Shown in pieces: positions 4,378 to 27,830 of a stretch of DNA of 64,000 bases (its first letter is position 1; each line of letters starts with the position of its first letter). The translations under genes and the position numbers were made by a program. The notes beneath the pieces are model-generated. The model did not search any database. It was not told where the DNA came from and saw nothing but the letters and a program-made list of their open reading frames with translations. This DNA comes from Bacteriovoracia bacterium (GTDB taxonomy: Bacteria; Bdellovibrionota; Bacteriovoracia; Bacteriovoracales; Bacteriovoracaceae), in assembly GCA_030431635.1 (NCBI GenBank), contig JAUIIL010000003.1, positions 372,001 through 436,000 on the forward strand, given 5' to 3'.

Positions 4378-5844
4378 ATGGCAATTAAAATGAATATGGG
4401 GTTGAAGCAAACACAAAGCTTGATGATGACTCCTCAGTTACAGCAAGCCATTAAGCTTTTAACTCTAACTCACTTAGAAATGACAAATGTTATTGCTCAA
4501 GAGATGGTTGAAAATCCAATGATCGAAGAGCTTGGAGGAGAAGTGAGTAAAGAGGAGATGCTTAACTCTCAGAAAGAAAGTATTCAAAATAAAGAAGCAA
4601 CTTCTGATGATTTCAATGGACCAGACATTGTTGATAAAGGAAAAGATAACTTTGACTGGGAAAAATATGTAGATACTTACAACTCAAATTCTTCCTCTGC
4701 ACCTAAATCAGCAGGGGACTTCAATGGTAACGATGACCAGCCTAATTATGAGAACATGGTTTCAAGAAGTATGACTCTTGAAGAACATCTCGAATGGCAA
4801 TTAAAGATGGAAAATCTGATTGAAGAGGAATGGGAATTTGCTCTTAATGTAATTCACAATCTTGATGACAGTGGATATCTGGAAGAGAATATCGAAACCC
4901 TCATTGCTAATTGCAAACTGGAGAGGGAGGATGCGTTTGAAATCTTAAAAATGATTCAAAACCTAGACCCTATTGGTTGTGCTTCAAGGGACTTGGAGGA
5001 GTGTTTACTCGTTCAAGCTCAGGCACTTGAAGTGAGAGCTCCTTTAGTTGAAATTATTATTAAAGAACACCTAACTGATCTTCATAAGAAAGATTATGCA
5101 TCTATCTCTAAAAAGACAGGAGTGGAGCAGTCTTTGGTTAAGGAAGCAGAACTTATTATCACGAGCTTTAACCCCAAGCCAGGAAAATTAGTAGGACAAG
5201 ATGAAACTCACTATATTGTTCCCGATATTTATGTTCATGAGGTTGGGGGAGAATTCATTGTTAAACTTAATAATGATGGAGTTCCAAGACTGAAAATTTC
5301 TAATTTATATAAATCCATTCTAAAGGCCCAGGGTTCTGGTGATGAACAGGCCAAAGAGTATATTCAAGACAAGCTTCGTTCGGCCATGTGGCTTATCAAA
5401 TCAATTGAAAATAGACAAAAGACAATTGAGAAAGTTGCCAATGCGATTGTGAAATATCAACCCGAGTTTTTTAAGAAGGGACCTGCTTTTTTAAGACCAA
5501 TGATTCTTAAAGATATTGCTAACGAAATTGGAATGCATGAATCAACTGTATCAAGAGTAACAACAAATAAGTTTATGCATACACCAATAGGAGTATTTGA
5601 ACTTAAGTATTTTTTCAACACTGGTATTGGTGGAAAAAATGGTGGGATTGATATTGCATCTGAAAGTCTCAAACTTAAAATCAAAGAGCTGATTGATAAT
5701 GAGAATGCAAAAAAGCCACTAAGTGATCAAAAGATATCTGAAATCTTAAGTGTTAAAGATATTAAAGTTGCCAGAAGAACGGTAGCTAAATATCGAGAGA
5801 TGATGAATATTCTTCCTTCATCAAAAAGGAAAAAACTTAATTAA
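4378..5844 (+). CDS. rpoN: RNA polymerase sigma-54 factor
   Basis: Sigma-54 directs RNA polymerase to -24/-12 promoters that need an AAA+ activator. Region I is glutamine/leucine rich at the N-terminus (KQTQSLMMTPQLQQAIKLL), an acidic linker follows (about 50-125), then the core-binding region, and the C-terminal helix-turn-helix. The RpoN box ARRTVAKYRE is at about 465-474. Length 488 is typical. A clear AGGAG site precedes the ATG. It sits between lptB and hpf in the common lptB-rpoN-hpf arrangement. I did not find convincing -24/-12 promoters in the window, so its targets are presumably elsewhere. Confidence 0.97.
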   Translation: MAIKMNMGLKQTQSLMMTPQLQQAIKLLTLTHLEMTNVIAQEMVENPMIEELGGEVSKEEMLNSQKESIQNKEATSDDFNGPDIVDKGKDNFDWEKYVDTYNSNSSSAPKSAGDFNGNDDQPNYENMVSRSMTLEEHLEWQLKMENLIEEEWEFALNVIHNLDDSGYLEENIETLIANCKLEREDAFEILKMIQNLDPIGCASRDLEECLLVQAQALEVRAPLVEIIIKEHLTDLHKKDYASISKKTGVEQSLVKEAELIITSFNPKPGKLVGQDETHYIVPDIYVHEVGGEFIVKLNNDGVPRLKISNLYKSILKAQGSGDEQAKEYIQDKLRSAMWLIKSIENRQKTIEKVANAIVKYQPEFFKKGPAFLRPMILKDIANEIGMHESTVSRVTTNKFMHTPIGVFELKYFFNTGIGGKNGGIDIASESLKLKIKELIDNENAKKPLSDQKISEILSVKDIKVARRTVAKYREMMNILPSSKRKKLN

Positions 5845-5852
5845 AGATGAAA

Positions 5853-5898
5853 CCTTAATTTTTTAAGGAACGATAACCTAATACCTCGTTATTCGAGG
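5853..5898 (+). promoter_or_regulatory. Two small hairpins in the rpoN-hpf gap
   Basis: CCTTAA/TTAAGG (5853-5858 with 5863-5868) and CCTCG/CGAGG (5884-5888 with 5894-5898) form two short stem-loops directly before the GGAG site and ATG of hpf. They could set mRNA ends or tune hpf translation. Neither is followed by a T run, so they are not classic terminators. Function is not known. Confidence 0.35.
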
Positions 5899-5909
5899 AG
5901 AGGAGATTT

Positions 5910-6299
5910 ATGAACGTCAAAATTTCTTTTAAGCACCTTGAACACACTCCAGCTCTAGATGAGAAAATTCATTTGAAGTCTCAAAAATTTACGAAATTTA
6001 TTGATGGGAAGTTCGATGTCTTCTGGACGTGTTATGTTGATGATGGAAAGCACTATGCTGAGATAAAGCTTTTAGGTCCACAATTTGAGTACCACGCGAA
6101 AGCCTCATCTCCAACGATGTATAAGACACTGGACCAGGTTGTGCTTAAAATTGAAAAACAACTTTCTAAGAAAAAAGGAAAGTGGAAAGATCATATCCAC
6201 CATAAGCATGACAAACTTGTTAAAAATGAGTTTGTCGATGAAATAGAGAAGGATGAAGAGAGGGTCATACAAGATAAGTATGATGAAAATGTCGCTTAA
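5910..6299 (+). CDS. hpf: Ribosome hibernation promoting factor (short HPF/RaiA type)
   Basis: HPF binds the 30S decoding channel and silences ribosomes in slow growth. The N-terminal 95 residues have the HPF/RaiA pattern: an opening beta strand and helix with HLEHTPALDEKI, a central strand region, and a lysine-rich second helix ending KKKGKWKDHIHHKH. A charged tail of about 30 residues follows (129 total), longer than the E. coli HPF but without the long-form dimerisation domain. It has a strong GGAG site and is the last gene of the operon, before a terminator. A silencer downstream of rpoN is common in proteobacteria. Confidence 0.92.
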   Translation: MNVKISFKHLEHTPALDEKIHLKSQKFTKFIDGKFDVFWTCYVDDGKHYAEIKLLGPQFEYHAKASSPTMYKTLDQVVLKIEKQLSKKKGKWKDHIHHKHDKLVKNEFVDEIEKDEERVIQDKYDENVA

Positions 6300-6301
6300 A
6301 T

Positions 6302-6332
6302 AAAAAAAGCCCTCGAATGAGGGCTTTTTTTT
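6302..6332 (+). terminator. Rho-independent terminator after hpf
   Basis: AGCCCTC (6308-6314) pairs with GAGGGCT (6319-6325) around a four-base loop. A run of A precedes the stem and a run of T follows it, so it should work on either strand. It closes the lpt-rpoN-hpf operon and insulates the B12 riboswitch downstream. Confidence 0.93.
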
Positions 6333-6371
6333 ATTTTCAGAAATCAATTGTCTTTTTATCTCTTAAGGGTT

Positions 6372-6484
6372 ATTCATCTAAAAATTAACCATGCCGATTT
6401 TTAACGGAAGTAGGGTGAAATTCCCTCGCTGTCGCGCAACTGTAAAGCCAGATACGTTTTAAATCATAAGGTATTCCCGCGTAA
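6372..6484 (+). ncRNA. Cobalamin (B12) riboswitch
   Basis: The leader contains AGGGTGAAATTCCCTCGCTG followed at once by TCGCGCAACTGTAAAGCC, matching the highly conserved core of the cobalamin riboswitch family (the G-G-TGAAA-TCC stem and the CGCAACTGT B12-box segment). It ends just before the GGAG ribosome site of the TonB-dependent receptor at 6495. In this class, bound cobalamin normally shuts off expression, often by hiding the ribosome site. The outer limits are approximate because the peripheral stems were not folded. Confidence 0.88.
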
Positions 6485-6494
6485 GGAGTCTCAA

Positions 6495-8288
6495 ATGAAA
6501 TCGTTTCTTTTCCTTTGTTTTTTTAGTGTTGCTTTATTGGCCCAAGTCCTCTCTCCTATTTTAGTTCAAGAAACTGATGATAATATTGATAGGAAAGACT
6601 CGCTCTCTCAACAAACGAGTTGGGAAGTTCTAAGTAAGCAGCAAGATTTTATTCTTGAAGAACTTCAATACATCTCAGCTTTAAATATCACAAGAAATGG
6701 TGGGCCAAGTGGGGCGACATCTGTTTTTTTAAGAGGATTTCCTAGTCAATCCACTTCTGTTTATTTAGGAGACGTTAGACTAAGTGATCCTTCTATTTTT
6801 AGCCGAACTTCAGATCCTTCTTTCCTTCCTTCTTGTTTTATCGAAGATGTCTCTCTCTTTAGAGGGGCCAATGGTGTGAGTTTTGGTGCGGATGCTACTG
6901 CTGGGGCCATTAAGCTTAACCCAAGGATTGCTAGAGAAAATAAAAATGAACTTCGAGCAAGTTATGGGACTTATGAGCAAAGAAATCTCTGTCTTTATTC
7001 AGGAAGAGTTTACTCAAAGGGCTCAGTTGCGTTTGGTCTTTCTCACTTTCAAACAAGAGGTTTTAGCAATGTGGCCCAAAGAGATAGTGCTGAAGCCGAT
7101 GGGGCCCAAACAAATTCCTTTTTTCTTAACTCTGTTCACCAGCTTCATTCAAAAGTTGAAAATGAACTTTTTTTTCAACTAGGAGTGAGTGAATTTGAAC
7201 TAGATCAGGATTCTTTGGACGATCCTAACTATAGAGGTGATAAAGAAGAGACAATGCTCTCAGAGAGTATTGATTTAAAACTTAAAAAGAACTTTGGCAT
7301 AATGGGGAAAGCTCAACTCTACTCTGTAGCAAGAAGAGATATTAATGTCGCTGACAGTGTTTCAGCATCATCAAATAATGATGATTTTAGAGGGAAAAAT
7401 ATTAACTGGGAAGTTAGGCCTTATTGGAAATCACAGTATTATCAGGGGTATTTATCCTATTCAAGACTTTTAGAAGTGAGTGAGAATAACACAAGTTCAG
7501 CTTACACAAGTGTTGATAAAACGGCCTATTCAAATTCTTTAAGCACTCTTAACTCCTTCTCTTTAGATAAGTGGAACTTTGAATTAGGAGGACGCTATTC
7601 TAAACATGAAATTATTGGGGAGAATTCGGCCTATCAAGCCGGTATTAAATATAGTGTATTAGACAATACGTTTCTTGTAGGAAGGTTTGGAGAAGGATTT
7701 AAGACACCAACTTTAATTCAACTCTTTAATACTGTAAGTGGGCAAACAAATGTGAGGGCAGAAAAGTCTCAATCTTATGATGTTGGGATTGAGTATTTAA
7801 ACTCAAAAACCAAATGGCAGCTTATTTATTTTACGCAAGATCTGACAGATAGAATTGGGACCGATTCAAGTTTTAAGACCGCTCAGATTGATGAAAAAAT
7901 AACCTCGGAAGGAGTTGAGTTTTATTTTTCACATTCCTTCAAACAAACTCTACTCTCGGCTTCCTACACCCTTACAGATTCATTCACTGAAGACACAGGA
8001 GCAAGTCTTAAAGTTCCTAAACACAAATTTTCTTTTTCAGCGAAGAGAGCTTTTAATCAAAAGTTCTCGATATTTACACGAGCAAGACTTGTGTCTCGAA
8101 GTTATGACTATAGCAACAAACCTCTCCTTAGTTATCAAGTCGTTGATCTTGGAGGTGATTTTCAGTTATCTCAAAATGTAAAAATTTTCATGGGGGCCGA
8201 GAACCTCTTTAACAGGCAATATAGTACGGCCTATGGCTACAATACAGCTGGTCTTAGTTTTCAAGCGGGATTGCAGATGTTCTATTAG
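6495..8288 (+). CDS. btuB: TonB-dependent outer-membrane receptor, BtuB-like (vitamin B12 uptake)
   Basis: An outer-membrane gated barrel that imports a ligand using TonB energy. A signal peptide (about 1-16) precedes a plug domain (about 45-140) with the FLRGFPSQST and RGANGVSFGADATAGAI motifs typical of receptor plugs. The remaining 450 residues alternate like beta strands and the chain ends in aromatic FY, the barrel-assembly signal. Length 597 is close to E. coli BtuB. The cobalamin riboswitch directly upstream is the main reason for assigning B12 or a related corrinoid as the ligand. No btuCDF genes are adjacent. A clear TonB box was not identified near the N-terminus. Confidence 0.88.
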   Translation: MKSFLFLCFFSVALLAQVLSPILVQETDDNIDRKDSLSQQTSWEVLSKQQDFILEELQYISALNITRNGGPSGATSVFLRGFPSQSTSVYLGDVRLSDPSIFSRTSDPSFLPSCFIEDVSLFRGANGVSFGADATAGAIKLNPRIARENKNELRASYGTYEQRNLCLYSGRVYSKGSVAFGLSHFQTRGFSNVAQRDSAEADGAQTNSFFLNSVHQLHSKVENELFFQLGVSEFELDQDSLDDPNYRGDKEETMLSESIDLKLKKNFGIMGKAQLYSVARRDINVADSVSASSNNDDFRGKNINWEVRPYWKSQYYQGYLSYSRLLEVSENNTSSAYTSVDKTAYSNSLSTLNSFSLDKWNFELGGRYSKHEIIGENSAYQAGIKYSVLDNTFLVGRFGEGFKTPTLIQLFNTVSGQTNVRAEKSQSYDVGIEYLNSKTKWQLIYFTQDLTDRIGTDSSFKTAQIDEKITSEGVEFYFSHSFKQTLLSASYTLTDSFTEDTGASLKVPKHKFSFSAKRAFNQKFSIFTRARLVSRSYDYSNKPLLSYQVVDLGGDFQLSQNVKIFMGAENLFNRQYSTAYGYNTAGLSFQAGLQMFY

Positions 8289-23552: not shown

Positions 23553-24134
23553 ATGAAAATTCTTTTACTGTTTATTTTATCAACAGCGTGTTTGGCCAAA
23601 AGCATAGAGATCTCCTCTCAACCAAAAGAGGCAGAGGTTTATTTAGTAAAAAATGGTCAAAAAACAGCAATGGGAAAAACTCCTTTCTTGGCAGCAGTTC
23701 TAGATTTAGAAAATGCACATTTTATGATAGAGAAAAAAGGGTATTCTCCGGTGTATTTAGTTATAGGAGAAGACTCAAAAGAGAGAAACTTCTACCAAGT
23801 AACTCTTCCCCCTTTAATTGATTATGTTGCTCCGATACAAGCTGATATTATTAAAAACAGAAGTGACGAGCTTATTGGTAGCATTCTTTATACACAACTT
23901 TTAATTGATAAAAACGATCATGACCAAGCGGATAGATTACTTAATAAACTTGAAAGAGAATATGAGAATTCAATTGCTGTAAAAATGTTAAGGGCCAACT
24001 ATCAGTTTAAAAAAGGTGCTTTCAGAGATTCGATAGCACTATACAAACAGTTAAGTGTTTCATTAAAACCAGAACAAGAAAATTTAAAAACTTTAATAGA
24101 TACATTTCTTAAACAAGTAGAAGGTAAATTATGA
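23553..24134 (+). CDS. PEGA-domain and TPR-like secreted protein (motor-like operon gene 1)
   Basis: A signal peptide (about 1-15) is followed by a PEGA-type beta domain: IEISSQPKEAEVYLV, then GKTPFLAAVL and the FMIEKKGYSP strand. The C-terminal half is helical with TPR-like pairs (about 105-185, including ADRLLNKLEREYENSIAV and AFRDSIALYKQL). PEGA modules are found in envelope proteins and surface-layer proteins. It overlaps the motA-like gene by four bases (ATGA), so it belongs to that operon and probably acts as a periplasmic partner. Confidence 0.8.
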   Translation: MKILLLFILSTACLAKSIEISSQPKEAEVYLVKNGQKTAMGKTPFLAAVLDLENAHFMIEKKGYSPVYLVIGEDSKERNFYQVTLPPLIDYVAPIQADIIKNRSDELIGSILYTQLLIDKNDHDQADRLLNKLEREYENSIAVKMLRANYQFKKGAFRDSIALYKQLSVSLKPEQENLKTLIDTFLKQVEGKL

Positions 24135-24862
24135 CTTATTTTATAGGACTTGGACTTTCGGCCATCCTTTTTTCTCTTATTGTATTTTTAGGTCATACAA
24201 GCTTTGGTTCGTACTTAAACCAAGAAGGTGTTATTATTGTTATTGGTGGAACAGTAAGTATTTTTTTAATGTCAAATAAGAAAAGTACTCTGGAGGCATT
24301 TGTTCACCTCTTAAAAAGCTTCTTAGGTCTAGGGACTAAATTCAACTACGAAGACGTTCAAAAAGACTTAATGAAGTGTTCACGTTCTCTGAACGAAGGA
24401 AGAGTTCCTAAATCAGAGTATGTATTTGTCAACCAAGCGGTAGAGTGGATATCTGCAGGCCTTAGTAAAGACGAACTTTATGGAGTCTTAGAAAATTCTA
24501 TTCAAACTCAACTTAATATAAGATTTAAAGCTGCTGAGGCCATAAGAAAACTAGGGAAATACCCTCCAGCGCTAGGAATGATCGGAACAGTTTTTGGGAT
24601 TATTGGGATTTTTCAAAATTTAGGTAATGAAAGTGGAGCAGCTGAAATTGGTCTTAATCTTGGGGTCGCGATGACTGCAACTTTATATGGTCTTGTTCTT
24701 GCCAACATTTTTATTTCTCCTTTAAGCGAAGCAATCACAGAAAAAGCTCTAGAAGAAGAAGAAATCTTAAGAATGATACAAGACACAGTTATCCAGTGGG
24801 ATAGAGGGGACTCTCTCTTTTTAATCAAAGAAAATTTGAGTTTATACAATGAAGCGAGTTAG
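24131..24862 (+). CDS. motA: MotA/TolQ/ExbB family proton-channel protein, MotA-like
   Basis: An inner-membrane stator subunit homologue. Four membrane segments lie near 3-20, 33-48, 144-162 and 172-197. The signature KYPPALGMIGTVFGIIGI carries the conserved Pro145/146 before TM3, and the ATLYGLVLANIFISPL motif ends TM4 with Pro197. A large cytoplasmic loop of about 90 residues between TM2 and TM3 is typical of MotA, not TolQ. The length (243) is a little below MotA. It is directly followed by its MotB partner with a 14-base overlap. Confidence 0.9.
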   Translation: MTYFIGLGLSAILFSLIVFLGHTSFGSYLNQEGVIIVIGGTVSIFLMSNKKSTLEAFVHLLKSFLGLGTKFNYEDVQKDLMKCSRSLNEGRVPKSEYVFVNQAVEWISAGLSKDELYGVLENSIQTQLNIRFKAAEAIRKLGKYPPALGMIGTVFGIIGIFQNLGNESGAAEIGLNLGVAMTATLYGLVLANIFISPLSEAITEKALEEEEILRMIQDTVIQWDRGDSLFLIKENLSLYNEAS

Positions 24863-25616
24863 TAGAAGAAATTCAAGAAGTTTAAGGTTTGAATCTCATT
24901 CAGATGAGAGCTGGGCCGTAAGTTACGTTGACTTACTAACTTTACTTTTATGTTTTTTTATTATTTTTTTCAGTTTAGAAAAAAATGAAAACAGGATGGA
25001 GAAGAAAAAATACCTTTCTATGCTTGTTGATGGATTACAACCCACCAAAGAACAACAGTTATCTCCTCGCTCAAACAAAAATGAACCTAGTAATAAAGAA
25101 ACAGCTAGACAAAATAATTCCACCGAAGCCTCTCGTGAAGTTGCGAGTATTAAACCAGCAACATCTAAAACTTTTGAAGCTGTTATTTCAAAAGTGATTT
25201 CTGACCAAAATGGAAAAAGTCAAACGCGTTTAGAAGAAGAACATTTATTTATTGAATTTGAGAAAGTCTCTTTTTTTGGAACTGGTCAAAAGAATTTAAA
25301 TTCAGATGGTCTTGAAACAGTAGAGAGAGTTATTTCCTATTTAAGACCCTTCAAGGATAAAGTGAAGATTACAGTACAAGGGCATACGGACCCAACTGGT
25401 TACGTCATAAGAAAAGATACAAGTAACTGGGAGCTTAGTGTTTTGAGAGCAACGAGTGTTCTTAAACTATTTGTTAAAAATGGTTTTGAACAAAAGTATC
25501 TTTCGGCGGAAGGATTTTCTTCACACAAGTCATCAATCGATCAAAGAATTATTAAAAGTAGACAGTATAAGTATCTAAGAAGAGTTACATTTAAGATCGA
25601 GGAATTAAAAAAATGA
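24849..25616 (+). CDS. motB: MotB-like stator protein with OmpA peptidoglycan-binding domain
   Basis: The MotB partner: a basic N-terminus, then a single membrane helix starting SYVDLLTLLLCFFIIFFSL in which Asp28 occupies the proton-binding position. A charged linker (about 50-115) is followed by an OmpA-like domain with VQGHTDPTG (about 178) and NWELSVLRATSVLKLF, whose Asp and Arg normally grip peptidoglycan. The 255-residue protein is normal for MotB. It ends with an ATGA overlap onto the FliF-FliG-like gene, so stator and rotor candidates are made from one mRNA. Confidence 0.92.
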   Translation: MKRVSRRNSRSLRFESHSDESWAVSYVDLLTLLLCFFIIFFSLEKNENRMEKKKYLSMLVDGLQPTKEQQLSPRSNKNEPSNKETARQNNSTEASREVASIKPATSKTFEAVISKVISDQNGKSQTRLEEEHLFIEFEKVSFFGTGQKNLNSDGLETVERVISYLRPFKDKVKITVQGHTDPTGYVIRKDTSNWELSVLRATSVLKLFVKNGFEQKYLSAEGFSSHKSSIDQRIIKSRQYKYLRRVTFKIEELKK

Positions 25617-27268
25617 AAGCGTTGTTATTTTTACTCTTAAATTTTACCTCTCTTTGGGCAAGTAGTTTTGTTGCTCTTGAACTTGAGCATCATGTACAAA
25701 AAAAGGCTTCTGAAGCCATTTCTCAAGTCTTACCTCAGGGAAGGTTTACTGTTAGTACAAGAGTTTTTGTTAAAAAAGGTGCTGCTAAAATATTTGAGAA
25801 AAAACAGGTCGATGTCAGACTACCTTTAAGTGGAAGAGTAATAAGTGTTGAGAAAAACCAAGACCAAAACTTTAGTATTGATAAGTTTTATCCCTACATT
25901 AAATCTGTTGAAATTAGTGTTGGAATTCCTGAGCATACCTCAAGAGATGTCAAAAAATATCTCTTGAGTTTTATTAAGCACAGTGTAGGGTTTGAGAAAA
26001 AAAGAGGAGATAAAATTACATTTCATAAACTTCCACGTGAGTTGGCCTACAGTTGGAATGTTGAAGAACTTCCTGATTTTTTGAAAGAGTCACCTCTTTT
26101 GTATTATTTGCAATCTAAATGGGGGTCAAAACTTGCAAATATTTTTCTTATTCTTGTTGGATTAATTGGTCTTGCGGTTATTGTTTTTTGGTCTGTTAGA
26201 GCAATGAAAAAGGTATTTGAAGGAATTGCTTCAACGTTGTCAGAAAAAGAAGGTGAGGTGACTTTTTCTAGTAATGTCCCTGCTTCATCTCAGAAAATAG
26301 AACCAAATAATTTTAATTCTTCTATCGCGATGAATCAGTTAACTGGAGGTCAATCTCTTTTTGATAATGCTCCGATTGAAGTCCTCAAACTTTTTTGTAT
26401 TGATTGCCAATACCGTAGAACTTATAAAGTGGCCCCGGTAATGCTTTGTTACAAAGTTTTAAACGAAAAGAAAGCATCAGAATTGAGAAAAAAATTGCCA
26501 GAAGTTTATTTTGAAATGGACAGCAGTTTTGAAATAAGTGAACAAGAACTATTTCATGTATTTGAAACTTATTATTATGAATACAGACAATTTAATGAAA
26601 ATGAACTCTCTCGAAAATTGATGTACTATAAACCAGAGCAAGTAAAAAGTTTCTTGAACGAATTTTTTGAAAATGGAGAAATCGATGAAATTCTTGTTTG
26701 CTTGAAAAACTTATTACCACAACAAAAAGCTGAATTTCTTTTATTATTAAATGCCAAAGAAAAAATTCAGCTTTTTCAGAGGCACACTCATCAACCAATG
26801 GATAAAACAAAATATCAGAGTATCTTTGGAGAAGTGGCCATCAGTACTCCACCTATGGTGCATAACTTACCAACAAATCATAGTGTCTTTGCTTTTATTG
26901 AAAAAGACCTCACTCCTCAGAGTTTTGAGGAAGACGAACTATTCTTTGAAAACAAAATTAAAGGACATAGAAGTATTCTAAGTTTAATTGACTCCTTTTC
27001 TCAAGATGACTGGGCGAGAATTCCTTTAAAAATAGTTGCATTAGGATTTTTTGGCTATTCAGATAATGTGAAAGATAGCGTAAAATTAAATTATTCAGAA
27101 AAAAGACTTGAGTGGCTTGAAGAATCAATTCATCAAGCTTTAAAGCTTGAGTTGAACTTTCTATCTTATGATGTTGTAGAAGCAAGAAACAAGTTATTGG
27201 AGTATGTAAAAAAAGATGAAGCAAGTAATGAAGAAGAATTACCGTCTCTATTTAATAAAGCTTCTTAG
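25613..27268 (+). CDS. Natural FliF-FliG-like fusion protein (candidate rotor)
   Basis: A 551-residue protein with a signal peptide (about 1-16), a periplasmic domain (about 20-160), one membrane helix (about 175-195) and a large cytoplasmic part. The periplasmic part resembles the last ring-building motif (RBM3) of the flagellar MS-ring protein FliF: LELEHHVQKKASEAISQVLP and, at 124-141, SVGFEKKRGDKITFHKLP. FliF RBM1 and RBM2 are absent. The cytoplasmic part has three helical blocks; the last (about 440-535) follows FliG_C, with NYSEKRLEWLEESI aligning to the conserved NMSxRAA segment. The Asp-Asp-Arg charge pattern of FliG's torque helix looks altered. Similarity is by eye and needs profile tests, but the neighbours MotA and MotB make it a strong idea. 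Confidence 0.7.
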   Translation: MKALLFLLLNFTSLWASSFVALELEHHVQKKASEAISQVLPQGRFTVSTRVFVKKGAAKIFEKKQVDVRLPLSGRVISVEKNQDQNFSIDKFYPYIKSVEISVGIPEHTSRDVKKYLLSFIKHSVGFEKKRGDKITFHKLPRELAYSWNVEELPDFLKESPLLYYLQSKWGSKLANIFLILVGLIGLAVIVFWSVRAMKKVFEGIASTLSEKEGEVTFSSNVPASSQKIEPNNFNSSIAMNQLTGGQSLFDNAPIEVLKLFCIDCQYRRTYKVAPVMLCYKVLNEKKASELRKKLPEVYFEMDSSFEISEQELFHVFETYYYEYRQFNENELSRKLMYYKPEQVKSFLNEFFENGEIDEILVCLKNLLPQQKAEFLLLLNAKEKIQLFQRHTHQPMDKTKYQSIFGEVAISTPPMVHNLPTNHSVFAFIEKDLTPQSFEEDELFFENKIKGHRSILSLIDSFSQDDWARIPLKIVALGFFGYSDNVKDSVKLNYSEKRLEWLEESIHQALKLELNFLSYDVVEARNKLLEYVKKDEASNEEELPSLFNKAS

Positions 27269-27830
27269 CCTTACTTTCTTTTTTTTCTTTTCAAAAAACC
27301 TATTGGCAAAAACTTTTTTTGAACACATCGACTCAGTTACAAATCAAGGGAAACATTTTCTGGAAGTTGGAGCTGGTATTTATGTGATTAGTGGAGATAG
27401 TAATGTTTCTGATATAGGAGCTTTTGATGTCCATTATACGTTTAAGTTTCATGAAAAATATTCAGCTCAAATATCACAAAGCTTTATCTATGGAACAGAG
27501 AGTTTTTTTCAAAACTTATTACGTGGTAATGATTTTCTTGTCCAGTATTGTATCGACAATTGTTTTGTTGAAGAAACAACAAATGGACCAGTTAAGGCGA
27601 GTCAATTTAATAAATTAGGATATTCAATTGGTACTGGGGTTTCTTTTCGAGACGCTCAATTATCAAGCCAGAATATCAGTTACTCTGGAATCCTAGTAAA
27701 CGGAAGTCTTTTTTGGCATATTAGACCCAGGTATTCTGGTGTTCTAAGGGCCAATGTGAGTCAATTATCTAAGTCCAGCAAAAGTGTCACTTTAGTAGTT
27801 ATTACTGCTGGCTTACGCATGTCATTCTAA
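27228..27830 (+). CDS. Outer-membrane beta-barrel-like protein (end of motor-like operon)
   Basis: A signal peptide (about 1-27, cut near LLAKT) precedes alternating beta-strand sequence with FLEVGAGIYVISGDSN, AFDVHYTFKF, KLGYSIGTGVSF and a final strand ending in Phe (TAGLRMSF). This fits a small outer-membrane barrel of about eight strands. The ATG at 27228 gives a better signal peptide than ATG 27216. It overlaps the rotor gene's end by 41 bases, so it is part of the operon and might be the outer-membrane element that the motor acts on. Confidence 0.8.
   Translation: MKKNYRLYLIKLLSLTFFFFFSKNLLAKTFFEHIDSVTNQGKHFLEVGAGIYVISGDSNVSDIGAFDVHYTFKFHEKYSAQISQSFIYGTESFFQNLLRGNDFLVQYCIDNCFVEETTNGPVKASQFNKLGYSIGTGVSFRDAQLSSQNISYSGILVNGSLFWHIRPRYSGVLRANVSQLSKSSKSVTLVVITAGLRMSF

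Follow-up and report, generated by a model that had tools for sequence, protein, structure and literature searches.

We analysed a 64,000-nucleotide stretch of a Bacteriovoracia bacterium genome (positions 372,001–436,000 of contig JAUIIL010000003.1, assembly GCA_030431635.1; G000:C3:372001-436000 in our numbering), referred to here as the window, and found in it, at 23553–27830 on the plus strand, five genes that probably encode a self-contained, flagellum-independent motor whose stator and rotor are built from flagellar parts (a reading to which we assign a probability of about 0.62). The set combines a MotA/MotB-like pair with a 551-residue protein, here called FUS, in which a periplasmic domain resembling the RBM3 domain of FliF appears to be joined through a transmembrane helix to a FliG-like region; a PEGA/TPR-like periplasmic protein and an outer-membrane β-barrel complete it. 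A first-pass annotation of the window had proposed a stripped-down rotary or force-generating machine of this composition, which is still the best-supported inference, and had held the exact gene set to be undescribed; indeed, no description of this motor module was found in open-access papers.

FUS (25613–27268, plus strand) consists of a signal peptide, the RBM3-like periplasmic domain (residues ~19–140), the transmembrane helix (~161–200) and the cytoplasmic FliG-like region (~237–541). Searches of Pfam, NCBIfam, PHROGs and the PDB with the single sequence returned nothing meaningful, and only family profiles and the fold gave matches. A two-row FUS profile was used to find further members among 369 sampled Bdellovibrionota genomes, followed by an 11-row profile (A3). 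When A3 was run against all PDB sequences, the top five matches were all FliG (the best being 4fhr, 5.4e-6, and 1lkv, 5.6e-6), with the best of them aligned to profile positions 368–566; the next was an M-ring FliF chain (E=1.7), with FliF residues 420–494 set against the periplasmic and membrane part. The family profile also matched the FliF of the host genome itself at residues 226–280 (E=3.2e-5). A look for a separate full FliF with PF01514 and PF08345 gave no match at the operon.

We modelled FUS with AlphaFold2 (AF2), template-free, from an alignment of ten sequences from the window and the genome contigs. The model contains a helix–strand–hairpin–strand–helix–strand domain at residues 19–139, a long transmembrane helix and a C-terminal region made up of helices only, whose predicted local confidence (pLDDT) is mostly 82–94 over residues 440–530. 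In this model a single RBM-like domain lies ahead of a single membrane span. In a Foldseek comparison with the PDB, ranks 1–12 were FliF MS-ring or RBM3-collar structures (probability 1.00, E=3.1e-4), followed by FliG (probability 0.97–0.99 over ~320 columns), and the first 29 places were all taken by FliF or FliG; FliG_C in its MotAB-bound form (8ucs_H) matched with a TMt of 0.64.

Related modules were sorted into types A (the window), A', B, C and D. Type A FUS proteins are homologous to those of type C across 492 columns (hhalign 97.7%, 2.4e-12) and to those of type A' across 437 (99.1%), and types B and C match FliG with 97.1% and 96.6%, respectively. In type C, FliG_C (4.5e-12) and FliG_M were recognized in all seven of seven members, and the type B protein, of ~800 residues, matched FliG_C at 2.6e-15 and FliG_M at 9.7e-9. 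Direct alignment of type A with a thin FliG alignment gave 11% and E=0.0027 (0.28–0.63 for column shuffles of type A). Because this direct comparison is weak, the FliG assignment of type A rests on the A3 profile, the Foldseek fold and transitivity through type C. The match of the family profile to FliG, the presence of both RBM3 and FliG folds in the model, and the near-full-length homology to a 577-residue Bdellovibrio protein thus indicate that FUS is a natural RBM3–transmembrane–FliG fusion, as the first-pass annotation had suggested; the FliG match is significant at the level of the family. E-values from a single model, and the AF2 model itself, are no proof of how the domains are arranged in the cell.

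The two genes upstream of FUS encode the stator. The MotA-like subunit (24131–24862, plus strand; 243 residues) matched MotA_ExbB at 3.6e-20 and keeps Pro146 and Pro197. The MotB-like subunit (24849–25616, plus strand; 255 residues) matched MotB_plug (1.7e-9) and OmpA (1.9e-12), and keeps both the channel residue Asp28 and the peptidoglycan-binding pattern G178 H179 x D181 ... N193 xx L196 xxx R200 (NxxLxxxR), so that the annotated channel Asp, prolines and peptidoglycan-binding domain are all in place. In a maximum-likelihood tree of 63 MotA sequences, one branch (100/99) separated all module MotAs from the 11 flagellar-type and actinobacterial MotAs included. The window MotA fell within the type A clade (100/97), whose sister was A' (98/92 for A and A' together). 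Module MotAB is a dedicated stator lineage and the conserved partner of FUS. A second MotAB pair of the window genome is of the flagellar type (L209).

The first gene (23553–24134, plus strand) encodes a secreted periplasmic protein of 193 residues. PEGA (E=0.0019) and TPR_19 (3.4e-4) both matched, but below the Pfam cut-offs. The counterpart in genome G057 has a match at 1e-14 and occupies the same place in its locus, and from their sequences the counterparts in types B, C and D look like lipoproteins. The last gene (27216–27830, plus strand, with a possible start at the second ATG, 27228) encodes a 204-residue protein with a signal peptide, predicted to form an eight-stranded outer-membrane barrel. 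The AF2 model has eight long strands (mean pLDDT 86.5), and Foldseek returned Ail, OmpA, NspA, OprF and OmpX at probability 1.00. Other module loci carry a gene for ~200 residues at the barrel place, and these can be aligned as one family.

An open reading frame check placed all five genes on one strand, overlapping successively by 4, 14, 4 and 53 nt. They are flanked upstream by a divergent subtilase gene and downstream by a convergent gene for a small zinc-finger-like protein, and no flagellar genes, including those for rod, hook and export, surround them in the window, as the first-pass annotation had stated. The host's FliF and FliG genes lie on the same contig at 113–116 kb, ~280 kb from the five genes, and its FlhA gene at 311 kb, ~82 kb away.

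At least 18 loci from several families share the order TPR–MotA–MotB–FUS–barrel, with FUS only ~20% identical and with differing neighbours. This conservation across families makes the arrangement more than a chance observation, and none of the inspected module loci lies in a flagellar cluster; on both points the checks proposed by the annotation came out in its favour. Complete loci number eight for type A (the window, L013, L089, L090, L091, L092, L093 and L098) and ten for type A' (L107, L109–L115, L119 and L127); the first gene of L112 and L127 was assigned from size and place only, and the A' barrels from size, place and alignment. The named loci were found through MotA patterns, which biases them to A-like modules, and for annotating the genome loci we used profiles of our own making. 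Among the 369 genomes, 12 carry type A, 29 type A', 41 type B and 26 type C, with at least one type in 88; these counts, from a quick first look, are probably lower bounds. Several genomes carry two or three types, and in G057 types A and B are adjacent. No relatives were found in plasmids by tblastn or in viral contigs by a contig scan, so by these tests the module is neither plasmid- nor phage-borne.

Types B, C and D contain the same parts in other gene orders. Type B is arranged as barrel–TPR–FUS–[cyclic-nucleotide-binding]–MotA–MotB. The inserted gene, carried by the type B operons of one group (L013:3053-3544, with the same place in L065–L068 and L070–L072), encodes a protein with a cNMP_binding match of 6e-15 and relatives at 1.4e-39 or better; it is possible that it acts as a nucleotide-controlled brake or switch. 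In G107 (L058), a 390-residue protein (4850–6022) directly precedes the type C fusion (6019–7914) and is related to the N-terminal part of type C (periplasmic domain and transmembrane helix) with no FliG match, which suggests a mixed ring. Locus L094 (G193:C3) has a type A FUS and barrel with no adjacent MotAB or TPR genes, so its stator must be encoded elsewhere or shared.

Type C is found in Bdellovibrio bacteriovorus HD100 (G103) and Tiberius (G081). The HD100 module comprises MotA, MotB, a PEGA/TPR lipoprotein, barrels and a 577-residue FUS with FliG_M and FliG_C, encoded at G103:C1:2913420-2915153 on the minus strand. This strain has three MotAB pairs, of which we take MotA2 (Bd3021) and MotB2 (Bd3020) to be the stator of the module, judging by their location in the genome and by eliminating the other two. 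The Tiberius genome paper counts FliG in two copies (PMC3539863), and the type C fusion would be the second of them. MotAB2 and this 'second FliG' would then form the same kind of module as that of the window, differing in gene order and in an additional 325-residue protein, whereas the literature treats its parts as flagellar. We found no mention of Bd3012–Bd3017 in the open-access papers searched.

Stator and rotor of the module are homologues of flagellar motor parts: it shares with that motor a MotA/MotB pair that keeps the channel Asp and the peptidoglycan anchor, as well as RBM3 and FliG-like domains, yet most of what characterizes a flagellar motor is missing. RBM3 and FliG are in one protein; there is no separate full FliF with RBM1, RBM2 and RBM3; rod, hook and export genes are not clustered with it; MotA is of a separate lineage; the flagellar torque charges are not retained as a set; and the module has its own barrel and TPR protein. 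No FliM or FliN genes were seen within module loci, and when alignments and sequences of types A, B and C were read by eye, the position of the FliM-binding motif EHPQR did not carry it, so a CheY-type switch is not expected. An engineered full-frame covalent fusion of FliF to FliG in Salmonella is reported to assemble rings (PMC6079021). Such constructs share the covalent ring–rotor junction but join full flagellar FliF and FliG, whereas only RBM3 and FliG-like domains are joined here, in a natural, separate operon. The window module has the five genes, fixed order and RBM3–transmembrane–FliG fusion by which we define the family.

We propose that the stator, held to peptidoglycan by the OmpA domain of MotB, would conduct ions, presumably protons, past Asp28 and that the turning MotA ring would push against the FliG_C-like domain of FUS, which would face MotA. 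The stator would be a MotA5–MotB2 complex, after the 5:2 stoichiometry of its known relatives. Copies of FUS may assemble through the RBM3-like domain into an inner-membrane ring, a minimal M-ring fused to its own rotor, and the moving periplasmic ring could hand the force to the PEGA/TPR protein and the OmpX/OmpA-like barrel. Ring formation, rotation, the type of ion and the contact with the barrel, like every mechanical step here, are what we infer from the parts. On the best reading, the module is an independent stator–rotor motor that links the flow of ions to the outer membrane.

Several observations weigh against a self-contained motor independent of the flagellum. The reading is drawn from sequences and models; the FUS model has an overall score (pTM) of only 0.43 with a low-confidence linker; and the module is distributed patchily and may be absent from many gliders or predators. 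The torque residues, which we take to be FliG R281, D288 and D289 and MotA R90 and E98 in E. coli numbering, are altered. At the R281 place, 10 of 11 type A FUS proteins have a basic residue, the D288/D289 pair is lost, and in the window MotA the R90 place is Asn and the E98 place Glu, where the six further type A MotAs have Thr. With D288/D289 and R90 lost and R281 retained only as a basic place, the torque contact is either different or perhaps absent; from the sequences, the MotA–FUS contact appears related to the flagellar one but rewired.

The remaining adverse points also support an accessory flagellar role, in which MotAB would be an alternative flagellar stator and FUS would encircle the basal body as an additional rotor or as a ring on which stators dock. 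FlhA is present in 45 of 47 carriers or candidate carriers, and all three HD100 MotAB pairs, MotAB2 included, are reported to contribute to the motility of the single flagellum (PMC12827227; Morehouse 2011, as cited in PMC11323537); the two FliG copies counted in Bdellovibrio (PMC3539863) also fit. However, FliL Bd1076 binds MotB3 and not MotA2 or MotB2 (PMC11323537), and the position of the inspected loci, the MotA lineage, and the private barrel and TPR protein that travel with the module all argue otherwise. The two carriers lacking FlhA are G292, a fragmented genome, and the type D carrier G063, in which FlhA, FliF and a flagellar FliG match were all not found in a single incomplete (89%) genome. 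We regard the accessory role as improbable. Somewhat less improbable, though still unlikely, is a coupler like Tol-Pal or Ton, in which MotAB would move FUS locally without full rotation of a ring, serving outer-membrane upkeep or gating and transport at the barrel rather than motility. Such a coupler would need a barrel, a TPR protein in the periplasm and a stator that binds peptidoglycan, all of which the module has, and the operon contains no gene for a surface adhesin or filament, but FliG-like rotor and RBM3 ring-building domains are missing in Tol, Ton and Exb systems, and the anchor is an OmpA domain of the MotB type rather than a TolR/ExbD domain. Zorya, GldLM of the type IX secretion system and Tol-Pal are likewise 5:2 ion-driven motors with periplasmic arms; they have neither a FliG-like rotor nor an RBM3 domain. 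A Zorya-type defence motor was rejected as having next to no likelihood: MotB resembles ZorB (3.6e-12), but neither MotA nor FUS had a PADLOC match and no effector gene (ZorC, ZorD or ZorE) lies nearby.

If the module is a self-contained motor, it most likely serves the Bdellovibrionota in gliding over surfaces or in moving the outer membrane in some other way, although that it drives gliding we hold at somewhat below an even chance. A comparable chance, overlapping the others and compatible with the proposed architecture, goes to gliding being powered by an Agl-Glt-like ExbB/ExbD cluster, with the module doing another job. Agl-Glt of Myxococcus and its Bdellovibrio homologues also couple a proton-driven stator to the outer membrane via periplasmic TPR proteins, but with an ExbB/ExbD-type motor (AglR with the two ExbD-like AglQ and AglS), many more genes, and no FliG or RBM3; the module's MotB carries OmpA rather than ExbD, and no Glt-like genes neighbour it. 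It has been proposed that Bd0828–0838 encodes the gliding apparatus of Bdellovibrio (PMC3169522), HD100 and Tiberius have four Tol-like gliding operons conserved between them (PMC3539863), and an insertion in aglR (Bd1481) reduced biofilm predation (PMC2277423). The window genome has two comparable clusters (L019 and L021, on G000:C15 and C16), in which ExbB–ExbD–ExbD genes accompany those for large TPR and FHA proteins in an Agl-Glt-resembling layout. On the other hand, GltH, I, J and K, essential in Myxococcus, are missing in Bdellovibrio (PMC3169522), and a 2026 review states that the gliding machinery of Bdellovibrionota 'remains unidentified' and calls finding its motor 'a major open challenge' (PMC13104615).

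We noted some further loci. The window genome encodes two stand-alone FliG_C proteins, of 142 residues (L014:7955-8383 on G000:C2; E=2.2e-20) and 144 residues (L015:7588-8022 on G000:C17; E=2.6e-13), the latter near a cyclic-nucleotide-binding-like gene and a coiled-coil gene; similar frames of 144–158 residues occur in other genomes of the same family, and these proteins could be soluble stator-binding partners. Two contigs of Actinomycetota metagenome-assembled genomes (L129 and L130) have a MotAB pair matching the module MotA patterns, beside which no fusion gene was recognized. L100, labelled as a Nitrosovibrio metagenome-assembled genome, agrees with the Bdellovibrionota contig G097:C22 (L089) in both length and gene layout, and it looks as though its NCBI label is wrong or the bin mixed.

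If the proposed motor exists, the flagellar stator–rotor contact is used for something besides turning a flagellum, which bears on the evolution of such motors and on the job of the ancestral stator–rotor pair. More tentatively than for gliding as such, the modules may make up a class of their own, a rotary motor that spans the envelope, free of export apparatus and filament, widespread in Bdellovibrionota, that includes MotAB2 and the second FliG and serves as the engine of flagellum- and pilus-independent gliding and of prey exit. The assignment of Bdellovibrio MotAB2 and its second FliG to the flagellum may accordingly be mistaken. In the model predator B. bacteriovorus the module offers a set of named genes that can be deleted, and it is a concrete candidate for the gliding engine of the Bdellovibrionota.

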